Assembly: GCF_009668025.1 (NCBI RefSeq)
Contig: NZ_WJXZ01000014.1
Span: 516,448 to 580,447 of the forward strand
DNA: 64,000 bases
Direction of reading: 5' to 3'
Source: Larkinella terrae
Lineage (GTDB): Bacteria > Bacteroidota > Bacteroidia > Cytophagales > Spirosomataceae
The position numbers and the translations under genes were made by a program. Below, one piece after another: positions 1,771-54,673 of the stretch. A model generated the notes under the pieces. The model was given only the letters and a program-made list of their open reading frames with translations, was not told the origin of the DNA and made no database searches. Position 1 is the first letter of the stretch; each line of letters begins with the position of its first letter.

Positions 1771-4722
1771 TTATTGTTGACTGTTCCGGCTAACGCCCAG
1801 AATCCGCACCGGCCCGGCTAATCCCGCCGGTAGTAAAGTGTTTTCTTTCCCTTTGAACTGCGCATACTTGTTATTTCCCTTGACGGCTTCGCCAATAAAG
1901 CCATTCCGGCGGGATGTCGTGACCTGTACTGTCAGGTTATTTTCACCCGGTTTTAGGAATTTGGTAACATCAAGTTGATAAGGTGCAAAGAGTCTTTTTC
2001 CTACTGATTGATTGTTGACGGTTACATTTGCCGTAAAAAACACCTTCCCCAAATCCACAACGTACTGAATGGCCGGGTCAACGGTTTTTACGTTGAAGGT
2101 TGCCGTATAAACGCTTTCGTCGGACTTGTATTTCAGTTGATCGTTCAAACGCCAATCCAGAAGCTGACTGTTTTTCAGGCTGACGTCGCCAACCGTAATG
2201 TTCCAGGTACTGAGCTTCAGCAATTCGCTGGTTTTGCTGGTCAGCGTGGGGTCCGGTGCCGAGACCAACGCGGCCGCAATTGGCGTTTTGACTGATGCAT
2301 ACAACATCACCGAACCGTACGGGGGTAATTCATAGCTGATGGCCTTGCCGGTTGCGGTTTCAATCTTGCCGTTTTCGGGGTTGAGCCAGTAACCCGACGT
2401 AAACATTCCGTCCAGATTCAGTGCTATCGTTTGCCACTGATCGGTTTTATTCCAGATGAATTTGAGCTGGCTGCCGTCCTGCATCAGCCGGGTAATCTGA
2501 CGCGAAAAATCCACCGGTTTGGCAAACCGGATCGACTGGCGAATGCTGGCGACGGCGGTTTCGTCGAACCCGGTTTTGGTCGTTTTCTGCTGCCCGACTT
2601 CGTTCATCAACTGCGCCGTCTGCTGATCATTGGCTGCGTAATCCAGGAACGAAGGCTGTTTCTGGGGTAGTTTCCCGACGGCCCAGATCGGTAAGCCCTG
2701 TTTGCTCAGCGCATTGACGTGTTTCGCGCTGGCTAGGTCAATGTAGGGCAGGTTGGCCAGAATAAGGCCCTGATACTGGCTTTCGTTAACCGTGAGTTTC
2801 CCGTTCGCGAACGTTGCTTTCTGCAAAGATTCGTCGTTGACAAACTCCCAGGAAATGCCGTTCGCTTCCAGCGCATTGACGGTTTTCCACAATTCTTTAT
2901 ACCAGGTATTGAGAGGGGTTTTGGGCGCTTCAAACGTACCGAACGCGCCAACCTCCTTCGGTTCAACGCCTTCAAAATAACCGCGATACAGAATTTCGTT
3001 CGGATTCAGGGCGAGCTGGTCTTCCGAAAAATCGTTGAAGGGCATGTAAATCAGCACATCGGTCTGCGGTTTTCCAGACCGGAGGGCGTACTGACAACGC
3101 GCCAGATACTGGTTGACGGTTTTGATGTCTTTCCAGAACGGGTCGGACTCGTTCATTCCCGTCGAAAAATTGACGAACGCATTAAAGGGCGACGACCAGG
3201 TGTTCCAGCCCTCTTTGCCGTATTCGCCGGGATTGTATTTATAGGGCGTTCCGTGGTAAATCAATTGGTTGATTCCGCAGGCAAACGACTTATCGGCCCA
3301 GACTTTGATTTTCTGGGGCGTGGTCATTTCGGCCCGGAAAATGGAGACGAACGACTCCTGCGTGATGACCGGTTTGTTGTACAGGTGCGCGCCCGATGTC
3401 ACCAGTTTCAGATAACCTTCCGAACCTTCAGCAAACAGTTGCTCGGCTTCCGGAATGTCGGCGGCTCCGGCGGCCCCGATCACATCGATCGGAAAACCGT
3501 AGGCCTGCGTGCGGTGGAGCATGCCGCGTTTTTGCATCCAGCCATCGCTCGCTTTGATGAAATTGGTTTTGAAAACCTCGTTGACGGCAAGGTCGTAGTC
3601 GTGCATCAACCGCCAGCCTTCCGTGATATTGAAGGTGAACGGCGGTTTCGCGCCTTTGTACATACTTGCCAGGTAGGTCGGGTGGTTGTAGCCTTTCTGG
3701 AAAACCGCCCCCAGGTACGGCGCAATGTCGTAGCCGTTTTTCTCCCTGAACACCTTCAGAAAATCCGGCGAAATAATCCGGTCGGTATGAAATTCGTAGC
3801 TGTCGTTGAAAACCGCCCGCAGCGGTTTTCCGTAATAAGCGGGCAAACCGGTTCGGTCGCCCAACAGGTAATCGTAGGTTTTGTCGACCACGACCGGATC
3901 GAGGTGATCAATGACGTAGTTGGTTTTTGATGAAGCAATGAGCGACGGTTTTTCGCCGGTCGGAATCGACCAGGCGGCAACGATGCGCCAGTTTCCACCG
4001 GTCGGAGCCTGCCAGTTGAGTTTCCCGCCCGAAACTTTGTCGGTCAGGTCCACAAGGGATTTCGGATCCAGAACGGCTTGATTGTCACTTTTACCGGTTT
4101 CGCGGGCAGCAATCACACTTTTCAGACTGGCCCATTCCGGTTTCACGGGATTCTTTTGCAGCATCATCGCCAGCATGCCCGTCGGTTTGCCGTGGGCTTC
4201 CTGCGGTCGGGGCAGTTCGCCCGAAAACGTTTGACCGCCCGCCAGACTGGTGTCGGTGATGGCGAGTGTTTTCATGCTTTCTTTCGGATCAAAAAAAGCA
4301 CCACCCAGCGGCCAGCCGCTTCCGCCGTTCATGTCCACGACGACCTCCGACTGCTGCGCCTGCTGCATGATCGCCCGCAGGTGTTCGTAAAAAGAGGGGG
4401 TATCCCAGCTATTGACCCGATCGACCTGCGCTTTGGGAGCGTTTGGATTGGTGCCCATCGTGAGGGGCTGTACTTCGACACCGGCGAAACCGTTGTCGGC
4501 CAGTGTTTTAATTTCGCGCTGGAGTTCTTCGCTCGTGATGTCGTTGCCGGGCAGCCACCAGCGGGTAAACGGGCCAAATGCCCGGGGCGCTTTTTGAAAG
4601 GTTGATGCGTCGAAGTCAAAATACGGAAACCATTCTTTGGACTCAGACGACGTTTTCGGTTCCGGCCCGCAGGCTAAACCGGCCAGACTGACCAACCCAA
4701 TGATTAACGTACTTTTTTTCAT
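1771..4722 (-). CDS. GH106-type glycoside hydrolase lipoprotein (alpha-L-rhamnosidase-like)
   Basis: A 983-residue exported lipoprotein: a short hydrophobic leader ends in LAGLAC with Cys18 as the probable lipidated residue. Around residues 50-85 it carries FTRWWLPGNDITSEELQREI followed by NGFAGVEVQPL, the N-terminal hallmark of the large GH106-like alpha-L-rhamnosidase superfamily. The C-terminal third has galactose-binding-like sheets (RLFAPYQLDVTKFLKPGENN), as in these multidomain enzymes. It would remove terminal L-rhamnose or a related sugar from a plant or bacterial polysaccharide outside the cell or in the periplasm. It lies downstream of SusC1/SusD1, from which it is separated by a strong terminator at 4784-4820, so it may have its own promoter or depend on read-through. 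The family call is good; the linkage specificity is not known. Confidence 0.8.
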   Translation of the reverse strand: MKKSTLIIGLVSLAGLACGPEPKTSSESKEWFPYFDFDASTFQKAPRAFGPFTRWWLPGNDITSEELQREIKTLADNGFAGVEVQPLTMGTNPNAPKAQVDRVNSWDTPSFYEHLRAIMQQAQQSEVVVDMNGGSGWPLGGAFFDPKESMKTLAITDTSLAGGQTFSGELPRPQEAHGKPTGMLAMMLQKNPVKPEWASLKSVIAARETGKSDNQAVLDPKSLVDLTDKVSGGKLNWQAPTGGNWRIVAAWSIPTGEKPSLIASSKTNYVIDHLDPVVVDKTYDYLLGDRTGLPAYYGKPLRAVFNDSYEFHTDRIISPDFLKVFREKNGYDIAPYLGAVFQKGYNHPTYLASMYKGAKPPFTFNITEGWRLMHDYDLAVNEVFKTNFIKASDGWMQKRGMLHRTQAYGFPIDVIGAAGAADIPEAEQLFAEGSEGYLKLVTSGAHLYNKPVITQESFVSIFRAEMTTPQKIKVWADKSFACGINQLIYHGTPYKYNPGEYGKEGWNTWSSPFNAFVNFSTGMNESDPFWKDIKTVNQYLARCQYALRSGKPQTDVLIYMPFNDFSEDQLALNPNEILYRGYFEGVEPKEVGAFGTFEAPKTPLNTWYKELWKTVNALEANGISWEFVNDESLQKATFANGKLTVNESQYQGLILANLPYIDLASAKHVNALSKQGLPIWAVGKLPQKQPSFLDYAANDQQTAQLMNEVGQQKTTKTGFDETAVASIRQSIRFAKPVDFSRQITRLMQDGSQLKFIWNKTDQWQTIALNLDGMFTSGYWLNPENGKIETATGKAISYELPPYGSVMLYASVKTPIAAALVSAPDPTLTSKTSELLKLSTWNITVGDVSLKNSQLLDWRLNDQLKYKSDESVYTATFNVKTVDPAIQYVVDLGKVFFTANVTVNNQSVGKRLFAPYQLDVTKFLKPGENNLTVQVTTSRRNGFIGEAVKGNNKYAQFKGKENTLLPAGLAGPVRILGVSRNSQQ

Positions 4723-39158: not shown

Positions 39159-39224
39159 GTTATTACGTAATAGTTAGACGCTAAGGTAAAAACCGCTTCC
39201 CAAAAAGAAAAGTTTCTTCAAAAA

Positions 39225-39352
39225 CTCCGCTTAACTCCGCTCATCGCTGTTTAACCGCATGGGCGGTCCCATCTGCGAAATATTCTTTAACTTGGGCACC
39301 GGAAGAGTGCTATTTCGCGGAGATTCGCAGAGGACAGCAGAGGTAAGCGGAG
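39225..39352. repeat. CGGAG-family inverted repeat upstream of mce, with hairpin core
   Basis: The left side, CTCCGCTTAACTCCGCT (39225-39241), is complementary to motifs on the right (TTTCGCGGAG at 39313 and GGTAAGCGGAG at 39342). The loop holds AACCGC-ATGGG-CGGT-CCCAT-C (39253-39273), a 5-bp hairpin that recurs inside a different repeat at 43888-43908. The right arm ends 7 bp before the mce start codon. Confidence 0.75.
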
Positions 39353-43934: not shown

Positions 43935-44867
43935 TCACTTCCGGTTATCTTCGCCCGAAACCATGCCGATGTAGCTCCAGTAGCGGCTTTCGGCGATTTC
44001 TTCATTGCCGACAGCTTCTTTGATGGCGCAGCCGGGTTCATTGATGTGCAGGCAGTTGTGAAACCGGCACTGGTTCAGGCGGTCGCGCATTTCGGGAAAA
44101 TAATGGCTGATTTCCTCCTTCGCCATGTCGGCCAGCCCCAATTCCTTGATGCCGGGCGTATCGATAATGTAGGTGTCGGGCGCAATTTCGAACATTTCGG
44201 CGAAGGTCGTTGTGTGAACGCCCTTGTTGGCGAAGGTCGAAACCTCACTCGTGCGAAGTTGCAGGTCGGGCGCGACGGCATTAACCAGCGACGATTTTCC
44301 AACGCCCGAATGACCCGCTAACAGACTGATTTTCTGATCCAGCAAGTTTCGAAACACATCGACATTGGCACCTTCAGTGGCCGATGTTTCCAGACAGTCG
44401 TAGCCGATTTTTTCGTAGAGATCGATGATTTCGCGCTGGTAGTCAAGGGCTTCGTCTTTCAGAATGTCGGCTTTGTTGAAAACCAGGGTGGTCGGGATGC
44501 GGAACGATTCGGAGGTGACTAAAAACCGGTCGATGAAACCGAGAGAGGTGCGCGGAAACGCCAGCGTGACGATCAAAACCGCCTGGTCGAGGTTGGCGGC
44601 CAGAATGTGTCCGTGACCGGTTTTGTGAACGGATTTCCGAATGATGTAATTCTCGCGGGGCTCGATGTCGGTGATGACGACGGTATTTTCGAGTTCGTCT
44701 TCCAGTTCGAACTGCACGCGGTCGCCCACGGCAATCGGATTGGTGACTTTCAGCCCCTGAATCTTGAATTTGCCTTTCAGCCGGGCGCGGTAAATGTGTC
44801 CGTCGTCGTTGCGGACTTCGTACCAGGAACCGGTGGAGCGTATGACTAAGCCAGTTTGAGTTTGCAA
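43935..44867 (-). CDS. rsgA: Ribosome small subunit-dependent GTPase A
   Basis: A 310-residue circularly permuted GTPase that matures the 30S subunit. It has an N-terminal OB fold (YRARLKGKFKIQ), G4 in VFNKAD, then G1 GHSGVGKSSLVNAV, G3 DTPGIKEL, and a C-terminal zinc finger with C-x4-C-x-H (CRFHNCLH) and a further Cys in EPGCAIKEAV. The start is a TTG at 44867; no upstream ATG is available because the terminal repeat of the 44876-45350 unit begins 8 bp away. Loss of an original ATG through that insertion is possible but unproven. The nearest upstream same-strand gene outside the unit is waaA. Confidence 0.95.
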   Translation of the reverse strand: MQTQTGLVIRSTGSWYEVRNDDGHIYRARLKGKFKIQGLKVTNPIAVGDRVQFELEDELENTVVITDIEPRENYIIRKSVHKTGHGHILAANLDQAVLIVTLAFPRTSLGFIDRFLVTSESFRIPTTLVFNKADILKDEALDYQREIIDLYEKIGYDCLETSATEGANVDVFRNLLDQKISLLAGHSGVGKSSLVNAVAPDLQLRTSEVSTFANKGVHTTTFAEMFEIAPDTYIIDTPGIKELGLADMAKEEISHYFPEMRDRLNQCRFHNCLHINEPGCAIKEAVGNEEIAESRYWSYIGMVSGEDNRK

Positions 44868-44875
44868 AGTTTTGT

Positions 44876-45350
44876 GTTGTTTCGCGGAGTTGAGCGGAGT
44901 ATGCAGAGTTAAGCGGAGTTTTTTAGTTCGGGATTGAGGACTCGGCTTACTCCTTCTTTTAACAAGGTTACGTGAAAATTGATTAATAAACCTAACCGAA
45001 ATTGACCTAATTTCAGATAGGTGAGCAGTTGGGCAAAATGAACATCCGTTAGGGCTTCAACGGTTTTTGTTTCCACAACGATTCGGCCTTCCACCAGTAA
45101 ATCCATTCGGTAACCGTGATTTAACCGAACTTCTTTGTAAACGATTGGCATCGGCTTCTCCCGCTCAACATATAAACCGTATTCCGATAGTTCGTATTGT
45201 AAACATTCCTGATATGCGGATTCCAGTAAACCCGGCCCCAAAGCCCGATGTACCTCAATCGCACCCTTAATAATCTGATAAGATAATTGGCGATCCTCCA
45301 TTTTTTCTCCGCTAAACTCTATGCAACTCCGCTCAACTTCGCGAAACAAC
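44876..45350 (-). mobile_element. 475-bp inverted-repeat-bounded GxxExxY unit
   Basis: Two near-identical inverted ends of about 49 bp, each starting GTTGTTTCGCG and containing AGTTGAGCGGAGT (44876-44924; 45301-45350 on the opposite strand), enclose a single gene encoding a GxxExxY protein. The unit separates waaA from rsgA and supplies the waaA stop codon. Gene-less relatives with the same arms occur at 54571-54665 and, more weakly, at 39225-39352. This looks like a small mobile unit, but no target-site duplication was identified. Confidence 0.6.
44909..45301 (-). CDS. GxxExxY protein (PD-(D/E)XK nuclease-like)
   Basis: A protein of about 130 residues from the ATG at 45301 (MEDRQLSYQIIKGAIEVHRA); the frame extends 16 codons further into the terminal repeat and I treat that part as non-native. 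It carries the family-naming motif in LGPGLLESAYQECL and a nuclease-like core, YRMDLLVEGRIVVETKTVEA, with D...ExK residues of the PD-(D/E)XK fold. GxxExxY proteins are widespread in Bacteroidota with no established role. The start and stop codons both abut or lie in the unit's inverted ends, so gene and repeats behave as one block. Confidence 0.88.
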   Translation of the reverse strand: MEDRQLSYQIIKGAIEVHRALGPGLLESAYQECLQYELSEYGLYVEREKPMPIVYKEVRLNHGYRMDLLVEGRIVVETKTVEALTDVHFAQLLTYLKLGQFRLGLLINFHVTLLKEGVSRVLNPELKNSA

Positions 45351-46580
45351 CGTGTCCTTCACGATTTTCATCACTTTAGACGTTGCACCGGTATTCAGAG
45401 TAACGTAATCGCCCGCAATCGCCGAAGCTTGCGACGGGTCTTCGTAAATCCGCCGGAAAACCGTGTTGAGCTGAGCGGAGTCGGAAACCGGAAAAGCCGC
45501 CCCGGCCTTCACCAGATCGACCGCTTCCTGAAATTTCCCGTAGTTCGGCCCGAAAAAGAGCGGAACCCGGAAAGTCGCGGCTTCCAGAATATTATGCAGC
45601 CCCTTCCCAAATGCCCCGCCGATGTACGCAAATTCGCCGTATTGATACAGCGACGACAGCATGCCGATGTTGTCGATGATTAGGTGGTTGAATGGTTTGA
45701 GGGTTGGATGGTTAACCGCTTCGGAAAACCGCACGGTTTGGCCGGGGAGCTGGCTTCGCCAACGCTCGATTTCGTCGTCGTGAATTTCGTGGGGCGCAAT
45801 GATGACCTTCAGCGGCTGATCGAACTGCTTCAGGAAAGGAATCAGCACGTCCATGTCGGCCTGCCAGGCACTGCCCACGACCAGCAGGGGCTTACCAGCT
45901 TTGAAATGGCGGGCAATTGGAATGTCTTTCTTGGCTTCCGCAACCTGCTTCACCCGGTCGAACCGCGTGTCGCCCGCCAGCGTAACTTTCTTTATGCCGA
46001 TGCTTTTCAGCAGGTCAACCGACTCCTGATTCTGCACCAGAATGTGATCGAAAAATCGCAGAAAGCCCCGGTAAAAACCACCGTAGGGTTTGAAGAAAAT
46101 CTGATCGGGACGGAAAATGGCCGAAAACGAAAGGATTGGAATATGCCGGGCGTGGAGTTCCCGCAGGTAATGGTACCAGAATTCATACTTGATGAAAAAC
46201 GCAACGACCGGTTTCACACGTTCGATAAATTGCCGGGCGTTGGCGGGCGTATCGAAAGGTAAATAGAAAATATAATCCGCCCCCGCGTAGTTTTTCCGGA
46301 CTTCGTAACCCGAGGGCGAGAAAAAGGTGAGCAGAATTTTGTAACCGGGATACTGCTGCCGAAAAACCTCCATCACCGGGCGTCCCTGCTCAAATTCGCC
46401 CAACGACGCGGCATGAAACCAGGCAATCGGTGCTGAATTATCAGCCAATTTTGCGTTAATTTGTTGTAACCATCCGTTGCGCCCCTGGATCGCCAGCCGG
46501 GCTTTGGGATGAAATAAAGCCGCAGCCCGGAGTGTGGCCTGATAAAGTCGGATCGACGTGGTATAGAGTGCTGAAAGCAA
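45333..46580 (-). CDS. waaA: 3-deoxy-D-manno-octulosonic acid (Kdo) transferase
   Basis: A 415-residue GT30 enzyme that adds Kdo to lipid A precursor at the inner face of the cytoplasmic membrane. A hydrophobic N-terminal anchor precedes FHAASLGEFEQGRPV, with the catalytic glutamate. The C-terminal GT-B half shows FAYIGGAFGKGLHNILEAAT and PLFFGPNYGKFQEA, the nucleotide-sugar binding region. Length is normal. The final residues VVSRS and the TGA stop come from the right end of the GxxExxY unit (45333-45350), which was probably inserted at or just before the original stop. Confidence 0.95.
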   Translation of the reverse strand: MLSALYTTSIRLYQATLRAAALFHPKARLAIQGRNGWLQQINAKLADNSAPIAWFHAASLGEFEQGRPVMEVFRQQYPGYKILLTFFSPSGYEVRKNYAGADYIFYLPFDTPANARQFIERVKPVVAFFIKYEFWYHYLRELHARHIPILSFSAIFRPDQIFFKPYGGFYRGFLRFFDHILVQNQESVDLLKSIGIKKVTLAGDTRFDRVKQVAEAKKDIPIARHFKAGKPLLVVGSAWQADMDVLIPFLKQFDQPLKVIIAPHEIHDDEIERWRSQLPGQTVRFSEAVNHPTLKPFNHLIIDNIGMLSSLYQYGEFAYIGGAFGKGLHNILEAATFRVPLFFGPNYGKFQEAVDLVKAGAAFPVSDSAQLNTVFRRIYEDPSQASAIAGDYVTLNTGATSKVMKIVKDTVVSRS

Positions 46581-47409: not shown

Positions 47410-47412
47410 GTG

Positions 47413-47510
47413 CGAAACCCTGTCAGCGGTTGTAAACCCTGACAGCGGTTGAGTATATTTTGTTATGACTTAAACCGCTGTCAGGGTTTACAACCGCTGA
47501 CAGGGTTTCG
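47413..47510. repeat. Perfect 38-bp inverted repeat, AACCCTGWCAGCGGTT family
   Basis: Arms at 47413-47450 and 47473-47510 are perfectly complementary over 38 nt. Each arm contains two steps of a near-palindromic unit, AACCCTGTCAGCGGTT and AACCCTGACAGCGGTT. The loop is 22 nt and AT-rich. It sits between ytxJ and the GntR gene. Confidence 0.9.
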
Positions 47511-54560: not shown

Positions 54561-54570
54561 ATGGAGCTAA

Positions 54571-54665
54571 GTTGTTTCGCAGAGTTGAGCGGAGTAAAAA
54601 TGAGTTACGCAGAGGTTTTATTTATCTCCGCTTATCTCTTTTTAGCTCTGCTTAACTCCGCGAAA
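54571..54665. repeat. Gene-less relative of the GxxExxY unit ends
   Basis: A left arm starting GTTGTTTCGCAGAGTTGAGC (54571-54615) and a right arm (54625-54665) that on the minus strand reads TTTCGCGGAGTTAAGCAGAG are separated by 9 nt. The arms have the same order of CGGAG/AGAG steps as the ends at 44876 and 45350, but no gene between. It lies between SusD3 and the unknown 840-residue gene. Confidence 0.8.
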
Positions 54666-54673
54666 GTAAAAAA

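Follow-up and report, generated by a model that had tools for sequence, protein, structure and literature searches.

The genes waaA and rsgA of Larkinella terrae are separated by a short unit comprising a single GxxExxY gene enclosed by inverted arms. We analyzed this locus within a stretch of 64,000 nucleotides (hereafter, the window) from the 7.85 Mb genome of this Larkinella species (G000), where a waaA/kdtA-like ORF, GxxExxY, and rsgA follow one another on the minus strand (Table 1). The arm cores, at 44876–44900 and 45326–45350, are 25 nt long, inverted, and 96% complementary, and a gapped alignment extends the arms to 43 and 44 nt (44876–44918 and 45307–45350) with a local score of 59, while none of 50 shuffles scored above 24. 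The likely ATG of the gene (45299–45301) lies 5 nt from the inner end of arm 2, and its stop codon (44909–44911) falls within arm 1. An earlier sequence-only reading had described a lone PD-(D/E)XK-like GxxExxY gene whose start and stop touch inverted ends of about 49 bp; the inversion, the gene identity, and the contact with the ends all stand. That reading did not mention that the waaA-like ORF terminates at 45333, inside arm 2. GxxExxY has a single match genome-wide in G000 (E 0.001). A known structured RNA was rejected as an explanation of the locus, an Rfam search of window positions 44800–45400 having returned no matches at E up to 1.

Table 1. Features of the window at the GxxExxY locus and at two related palindromic sites.
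Feature	Position	Strand	Remarks
rsgA, downstream neighbor of GxxExxY	43935..44867	-	ORF and profile matches
Arm 1, type A: GTTGTTTCGCGGAGTTGAGCGGAG...GAGTTAAGCGGAG	44876..44918	+	contains the GxxExxY stop codon
Longer TTG-started ORF of GxxExxY	44909-45349		
GxxExxY / PDDEXK_3 gene	44912..45301	-	130 aa from the likely ATG; AlphaFold2 pLDDT 93.3
Arm 2, units of arm 1 inverted	45307..45350	-	contains the last codons and stop of the waaA-like ORF
waaA/kdtA-like ORF, upstream neighbor of GxxExxY	45333..46580	-	3' end formed by arm 2
Inside-out type A arm pair with linker	39224..39352	.	outer limits by inspection
Gene-less type A palindrome	54571..54665	.	type B at the same site in G108

The encoded protein belongs to the GxxExxY family, matching TIGR04256 at E 1.8e-43 (147.6 bits against a cut-off of 35) and PF13366 (PDDEXK_3) at E 1.5e-40. 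The motif residues G, E, and Y show no variation in either of two alignments of GxxExxY proteins. Across 40 sequences, D67, E77-x-K79, Q91, and Y95 are likewise invariant, and we take D, ExK, and QxxxY to be the RecB-type motif set. The AlphaFold2 model (mean pLDDT 93.3, pTM 0.87) has a mixed alpha/beta fold, which, together with the invariant D67/E77/K79 and the Pfam PDDEXK_3 assignment, places the protein in the PD-(D/E)XK superfamily. Foldseek best matches include Cas4 SSO0001 (E 4.7e-3), lambda exonuclease (E 1.5e-2), LHK-Exo, and AdnAB, with none at E 0.001 or below; PADLOC defense models gave weak Cas4 matches only (E 0.0034 and 0.016), and a sequence search for a solved relative returned none at E up to 1. 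Judged by the predicted model, GxxExxY looks most like the RecB/Cas4/lambda-exonuclease folds within its superfamily, but it is shorter (130 aa) and tied to palindromic repeats, and its immediate neighbors are waaA and rsgA, with no CRISPR or recombination partner.

GxxExxY is very common, scoring above the cut-off in 131 of 200 genomes of the window's bacterial family. In all 10 pairs of five type A genes (113 codons), dN/dS lies between 0.011 and 0.035, values that point to strong purifying selection on the gene. Carriage as phage or plasmid cargo was rejected, with homologs in 0 of 50,697 phage records and just 8 of 72,556 plasmid records; the sole PHROG match is to a family of unknown function (E 0.0046). 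We found neither a described role for GxxExxY nor an account of these arms in the open-licence PMC literature. PMC8934634 mentions GxxExxY in passing.

Gene-less palindromes in the Larkinella terrae genome

The arm motif CTYMGCKYAACTCYGC has 79 matches across G000 against 0 for the reversed-pattern control, and on inspection most of them belong to gene-less inverted pairs of about 90 bp. Within each arm, about four ~10-bp units follow one another over ~43 nt, and two inverted arms yield a hairpin of ~90 bp. As seen in the DNA surrounding the G000 matches, the common layout runs from GTTGTTTCGCGGAGTTGAGCGGAG through a spacer of ~6 and GGAGTTAAGCGGAG to a variable-length loop, beyond which the inverse follows. 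Some copies are inside-out, with their outer ends face to face, and some are irregular. Gene-less hairpins are the common form in G000 and the gene copy is the exception, and the data support treating the GxxExxY gene and its arms as one unit, the gene-bearing copy of a dispersed palindrome family.

As single-stranded DNA, three gene-less copies fold at -47.3 kcal/mol (L045, z -15.8), -50.1 kcal/mol (L047, z -15.3), and -41.3 kcal/mol (L053, z -14.4), and the less perfect window copy, already singled out by the sequence-only reading as sharing the ends of the gene unit, also folds as a hairpin (54569–54670, -20 kcal/mol, z -4.6). The single arms of the gene copy gave no fold on their own (z -0.15 and 0.14). 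Among 17 aligned palindromes, standard pairs occupy 94.3% of paired cells and both sides have changed in 12 of 40 pairs, with 0 of 500 shuffles matching any of five measures of this covariation. A permutation test on 18 palindromes also shows that the two arms of an element are more alike than arms across elements: no permutation out of 5000 did as well for the whole arm, for its outer 20 nt, or for the spacer, whereas 340 did for the inner unit, which fails the test on its own. No very recent duplicate was seen in G000, since nearest-neighbor identities among 18 elements are only 0.81–0.93.

Several type A elements carry a GC-rich insert of ~15 bp (CGGGGCCGCCCGGCG) within their arms, apparently at the same position, as if a second repeat targets the first; the carriers are L015, L037, and L051 in G000, G071:C17 at about 165608, and G043 at site 111441.

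Arm types at conserved sites across Larkinella

At the waaA–rsgA site, GxxExxY or a remnant of it is present in eight of nine Larkinella genomes. Type A arms, as in the window, enclose the site in G000, G071, G091, G082, and G043, and type B arms (GTTGTTACACAGGGTT...) in G058, G108, and G100. The protein beside type B arms is ~76% identical to the type A protein (G100 against the window), and arms and gene differ together in type at this site. The gene copy of G058 has an internal stop codon and that of G108 is shortened. The rsgA-side flanks of G082 (type A) and G108 (type B) are nearly identical up to the element.

The remaining genome, G016, has neither gene nor arms between waaA and rsgA and diverges most among the nine, its rsgA being 83% identical to the window's copy. 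The sequence-only reading had proposed a search for empty sites at this place; the site in G016 may represent either an original vacancy or a loss, the latter because G016 clusters with G043 and G100 in a midpoint-rooted tree that has open forks. At two sites elements are absent in G016 alone, and its divergence is too great for reading the junction in a target-site duplication test.

Eight site entries were comparable in at least two genomes, with types assigned from unit patterns and by eye and a subset of the genomes mapped at each site. Three of these entries (G000 85633, G071 153189, and G071 155483) represent one locus, and the set therefore comprises six loci, at five of which, the gene site included, arm type differs between species. 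At window position 39224, type A occurs in G000, G071, G082, G043, and G100 and type B in G091, G058, and G108; the linker between the arms is conserved there, and a similar stretch without arms is found in G016. At 54569, type A is present in G000, G071, G091, G082, and G058 and type B in G108. The merged locus shows type B in G000 and G043 and type A in G100 (85633 entry), type A in G071 and G091 and type B in G058 (153189 entry), and type A in both G071 and G058 (155483 entry). Site 95846 carries type B in G000, G058, and G043 and type A in G071 and G100; G000 and G071, which form a supported pair in the tree, are of unlike type here. At the sixth locus, 111441, type A occurs in G000, G071, and G058 and mixed units occur in G043 and G100.

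Ten distinct sites, from 52 G000 elements with sufficient flanks, map into 1.08 Mb of G071, and all ten are occupied in both genomes in this comparison, which ran from G000 to G071 only; in the reverse direction, among 15 G071 clusters, 9 have flanks in the compared G000 DNA and 6 are without counterpart. Spreading to new sites was not seen, because the ten comparable G000 sites are all occupied in G071. Elements thus persist in place, and their arms differ in type between species amid conserved flanks, differences that could also reflect short-tract exchange with related strains. Seven G000/G071 site pairs were compared, of which five could be parsed; in three of the five, the G071 copy resembles an element from a different G000 site more than it does its ortholog, and in the other two the ortholog is the nearest element, as under ordinary descent.

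One of the ten shared sites has two elements in G071 and one in G000. A 721-aa ORF (L224:13292-15457; G071:C17 153291-155483) lies between two G071 elements, and the corresponding place holds a single element in G000, G043, and G100, a pattern suggestive of gain or loss via recombination between elements. Within G000, element L033 (about 3449–3594) combines type A outer arms with inner units of type B and could be an intermediate of type switching.

Arms beside GxxExxY genes in other genomes and phyla

The public loci comprised the best 80 of at least 587, whose titles are mostly from Bacteroidota, with others from Ignavibacteriales, Melioribacteraceae, Marinimicrobia, Kiritimatiellaeota, and Pyrinomonadaceae, the last of which we take to be Acidobacteriota. 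Flanks were long enough in 75 of them for a unit test, which demands that each side of the gene carry two or more correctly oriented CRC[AGT]RAG units within 150 bp. It was passed by 50 of these 75 loci from the best 80 of at least 587, and failed by 25, against 0 of 293 control windows taken from the same loci at 600 bp or more away. Correctly oriented units average 2.28 on the left and 2.45 on the right in the first 100 bp and at most 0.12 beyond 500 bp over the same 75 loci (again from the best 80 of at least 587). By inspection, the unit variants include CACAGAG, CGCAAAG, CACAAAG, CGCAATRG, and CGCAGAGA, with CACGAATT, CGCGAAA, or CGGATT near more divergent GxxExxY proteins. Other arm units, also read by inspection, adjoin the divergent proteins of L273, L274, L280, and L281 (GGATTAAAGGATTAAG, CGCGGATTCAGCGGATT, CACGAATTAACACGAATT, and CGCGAAATA).

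Shuffled flanks provide a weaker test of arm similarity than the units. Inverted flank similarity exceeds all 50 shuffles in 22 of 30 loci of the bacterial family, five of the 30 being shorter than 3.3 kb, where the assumed gene position may be off; 37 of 74 named loci beat all 100 shuffles (6 of 80 dropped for short flanks; best 80 of at least 587). Arms were further matched across 99 of 110 loci (the 30 family loci plus the best 80 of at least 587), and a locus's own right arm proved the best match of 99 to its own left arm in 20 of the 99, where ~1 is expected (median rank 9.5). Over these 99 loci, protein similarity correlates with arm similarity at rho 0.36, the highest of 500 permutations being 0.098, with the trend confined to pairs above about 0.65 protein similarity.

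The paired-unit pattern was also counted in 22 genomes reached via the named loci. A Kiritimatiellota draft genome (G216) with one gene has 313 matches (control 23) and 80 matches to its own arm motif (control 0), and its gene copy and the fetched gene-less copies have a common arm design. An Ignavibacteriales genome with three GxxExxY matches has 266 paired-unit matches (control 5), a Pyrinomonadaceae genome with nine has 440 (control 16), and G203, with three, has merely 4 (control 4). In G216, the loops of L371 and L373 hold arrays of another unit, CAGGATT, and in L374 such an array adjoins the element.

Gene number and excess matches correlate across the family of the window (200 genomes) at Spearman 0.61 (0.55 without genus g13), a figure inflated by the matches that each gene's own arms add. 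With this generic pattern, 45 of 133 gene-bearing genomes have at most 5 excess matches, and 4 of 67 gene-less genomes (G008, G010, G037, and G053) have more than 20, reflecting either gene loss or another driver. The generic pattern is insensitive, because it misses Larkinella type A; the type A pattern GMGRAGNNNNGCRGAG has 37 to 141 matches in the eight Larkinella genomes with the gene and 9 in the genome without it (controls 0 to 2).

The association between GxxExxY and its arms is thus general across several phyla, and because the pairing with palindromes recurs in distant phyla, the hairpins are the likely target of the family. GxxExxY thereby acquires a concrete DNA partner, hairpin arms of matching type, and simple DNA substrates would suffice for a direct test of its function. 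Should the link hold, REPIN-type dispersed palindromes have formed around enzymes of an unrelated class, and an explanation would be gained for many repeats of Bacteroidota, Acidobacteriota, Kiritimatiellota, and other groups.

Candidate mechanisms

Taken together, a resident, selected nuclease-like gene within hairpin arms, many gene-less hairpins of the same type, positions that outlast speciation, and arms that remain matched but differ in type at one place fit best with a nuclease acting on hairpins of its own type, with repair copying between elements. We lean toward this reading, giving it slightly better than an even chance: GxxExxY would act on hairpins of its own arm type, and repair copying would rewrite the elements in place. 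The gene takes the loop position in one G000 palindrome copy; its product would recognize, and then cut or resect, hairpins made by own-type arms; and the break would be repaired from another copy, rewriting the element in place, keeping its arms matched, and switching them between A and B. New copies would arise from repair copying only rarely. We infer the hairpin cutting, its specificity, and thus any action of GxxExxY on its own ends, and repair copying is our presumed cause of type switching. More tentatively, and short of an even chance, GxxExxY proteins of several phyla may be palindrome-rewriting nucleases, each recognizing hairpins with its own type of multi-unit arm, whose predicted cutting, followed by templated repair, would keep and convert a genome-wide palindrome population. 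Were this true, a replicating repeat system would be run by a PD-(D/E)XK nuclease alone, without a transposase and mainly by in-place conversion.

I-Ssp6803I is a homing endonuclease of the same PD-(D/E)XK superfamily, and in the manner of such enzymes the GxxExxY protein could spread its own surroundings by repair copying; the differences are that no intron or intein was seen at GxxExxY and that many gene-less copies carry target-like arms. A closer parallel in layout is the REPIN–RAYT system, which is described as dispersed intergenic hairpin doublets with a cognate gene flanked by repeats, the RAYT gene being single-copy, vertically inherited, and not seen on plasmids, with more repeats where the gene is present (PMC8049555, PMC3733652, PMC3116915). 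Here too, dispersed hairpin-forming inverted pairs share sequence with the flanks of the gene. However, the only gene between the arms encodes a PDDEXK_3 protein, nearest to RecB/Cas4-type nucleases, rather than the HUH tyrosine transposase of RAYT, and the GxxExxY system is therefore not a member of REPIN–RAYT. Its arms also differ in consisting of about four ~10-bp units over ~43 nt, with no GTAG tag in their consensus (by inspection), and in varying in type at conserved places. By analogy, the GxxExxY system may nevertheless work like REPIN–RAYT. TIRtrons (TIRYT) are described as a gene between inverted repeats, with dispersed repeat copies in some genomes (PMC3733652). The GxxExxY unit shares both traits but has a PD-(D/E)XK protein in place of the tyrosine transposase.

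Among the alternatives, the one that survives best, though we consider it unlikely, is that the hairpins are host-domesticated as two-way terminators, mRNA ends, or chromosome structure, with GxxExxY as a conserved binder or processor and with arms changing by selection rather than copying. Consistent with such a role are the low dN/dS of the gene, the placement of 48 of 50 motif clusters (one cluster being the gene's own arm) outside genes, often near gene ends, as judged with a crude ORF caller, and the spacers of type A, which are terminator-like A/T-rich tracts beside the inner stem. Type B elements, however, were seen on inspection without such a tract, and the genes around elements (30 tandem, 13 convergent, and 5 divergent) are oriented close to background (59, 20, and 20). 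Type differences amid conserved flanks are, moreover, hard to obtain from point mutation.

Less probable still is the reading closest to the one first drawn from the sequence, a minimal transposon whose nuclease excises and inserts the unit via its ends, with gene-less copies as non-autonomous passengers. MITEs of DDE insertion sequences are short and gene-less, and they have inverted ends in common with a gene-bearing copy. The gene-less copies described here are likewise short, match the ends of the gene copy, and are many for each gene, and the lack of gene and arms at the waaA–rsgA site in G016 also fits. The GxxExxY unit differs in having no DDE transposase and in forming long near-perfect palindromes rather than terminal repeats with unrelated sequence between them. 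As the main process, recent transposition of the gene was rejected on the presence of the gene or its remnant at one site in eight of nine Larkinella genomes, and all ten comparable G000 sites are occupied in G071 (in one direction, 6 of 15 G071 clusters being without counterpart in the other). No target-site duplication could be shown at the G016 junction, which is too diverged, and the scarcity of homologs in plasmid records (8 of 72,556) and phage records (0 of 50,697) also argues against a transposon. The sequence-only reading had tied its mobility claim partly to inverted arms, differing between loci, at other GxxExxY genes; these were found, so that half of its grounds survives, whereas recent mobility of a minimal element is not supported by the site comparisons. 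Nor do the gene-less copies need to be its supposed deletion derivatives, being themselves the common form.

Improbable, finally, is a scenario in which the palindromes are produced and dispersed by some other machinery and GxxExxY genes simply came to lie in the loops. It is favored by the four genomes with more than 20 excess matches and no GxxExxY match and by the presence of a second palindrome family in G000. Against it stand the recurrence of the association in several phyla, the joint difference of arm and protein type at one site, and the correlation of gene number with repeat number (Spearman 0.61 in the 200 family genomes and 0.55 when g13 is left out, values raised by the genes' own arms).

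A further near-perfect palindrome, separate from this family, occupies window positions 47412–47510 and has ~41-bp arms made up of CCCTGWCAGCGGTT units. The motif of this palindrome, ACCGCTGWCAGGGTTT, has 29 matches in G000 (reversed control 0), four of them at 47412–47510; in the other Larkinella genomes it has 0 matches in G043, G100, G058, and G016, 2 in G071, 3 in G108, 8 in G091, and 9 in G082.
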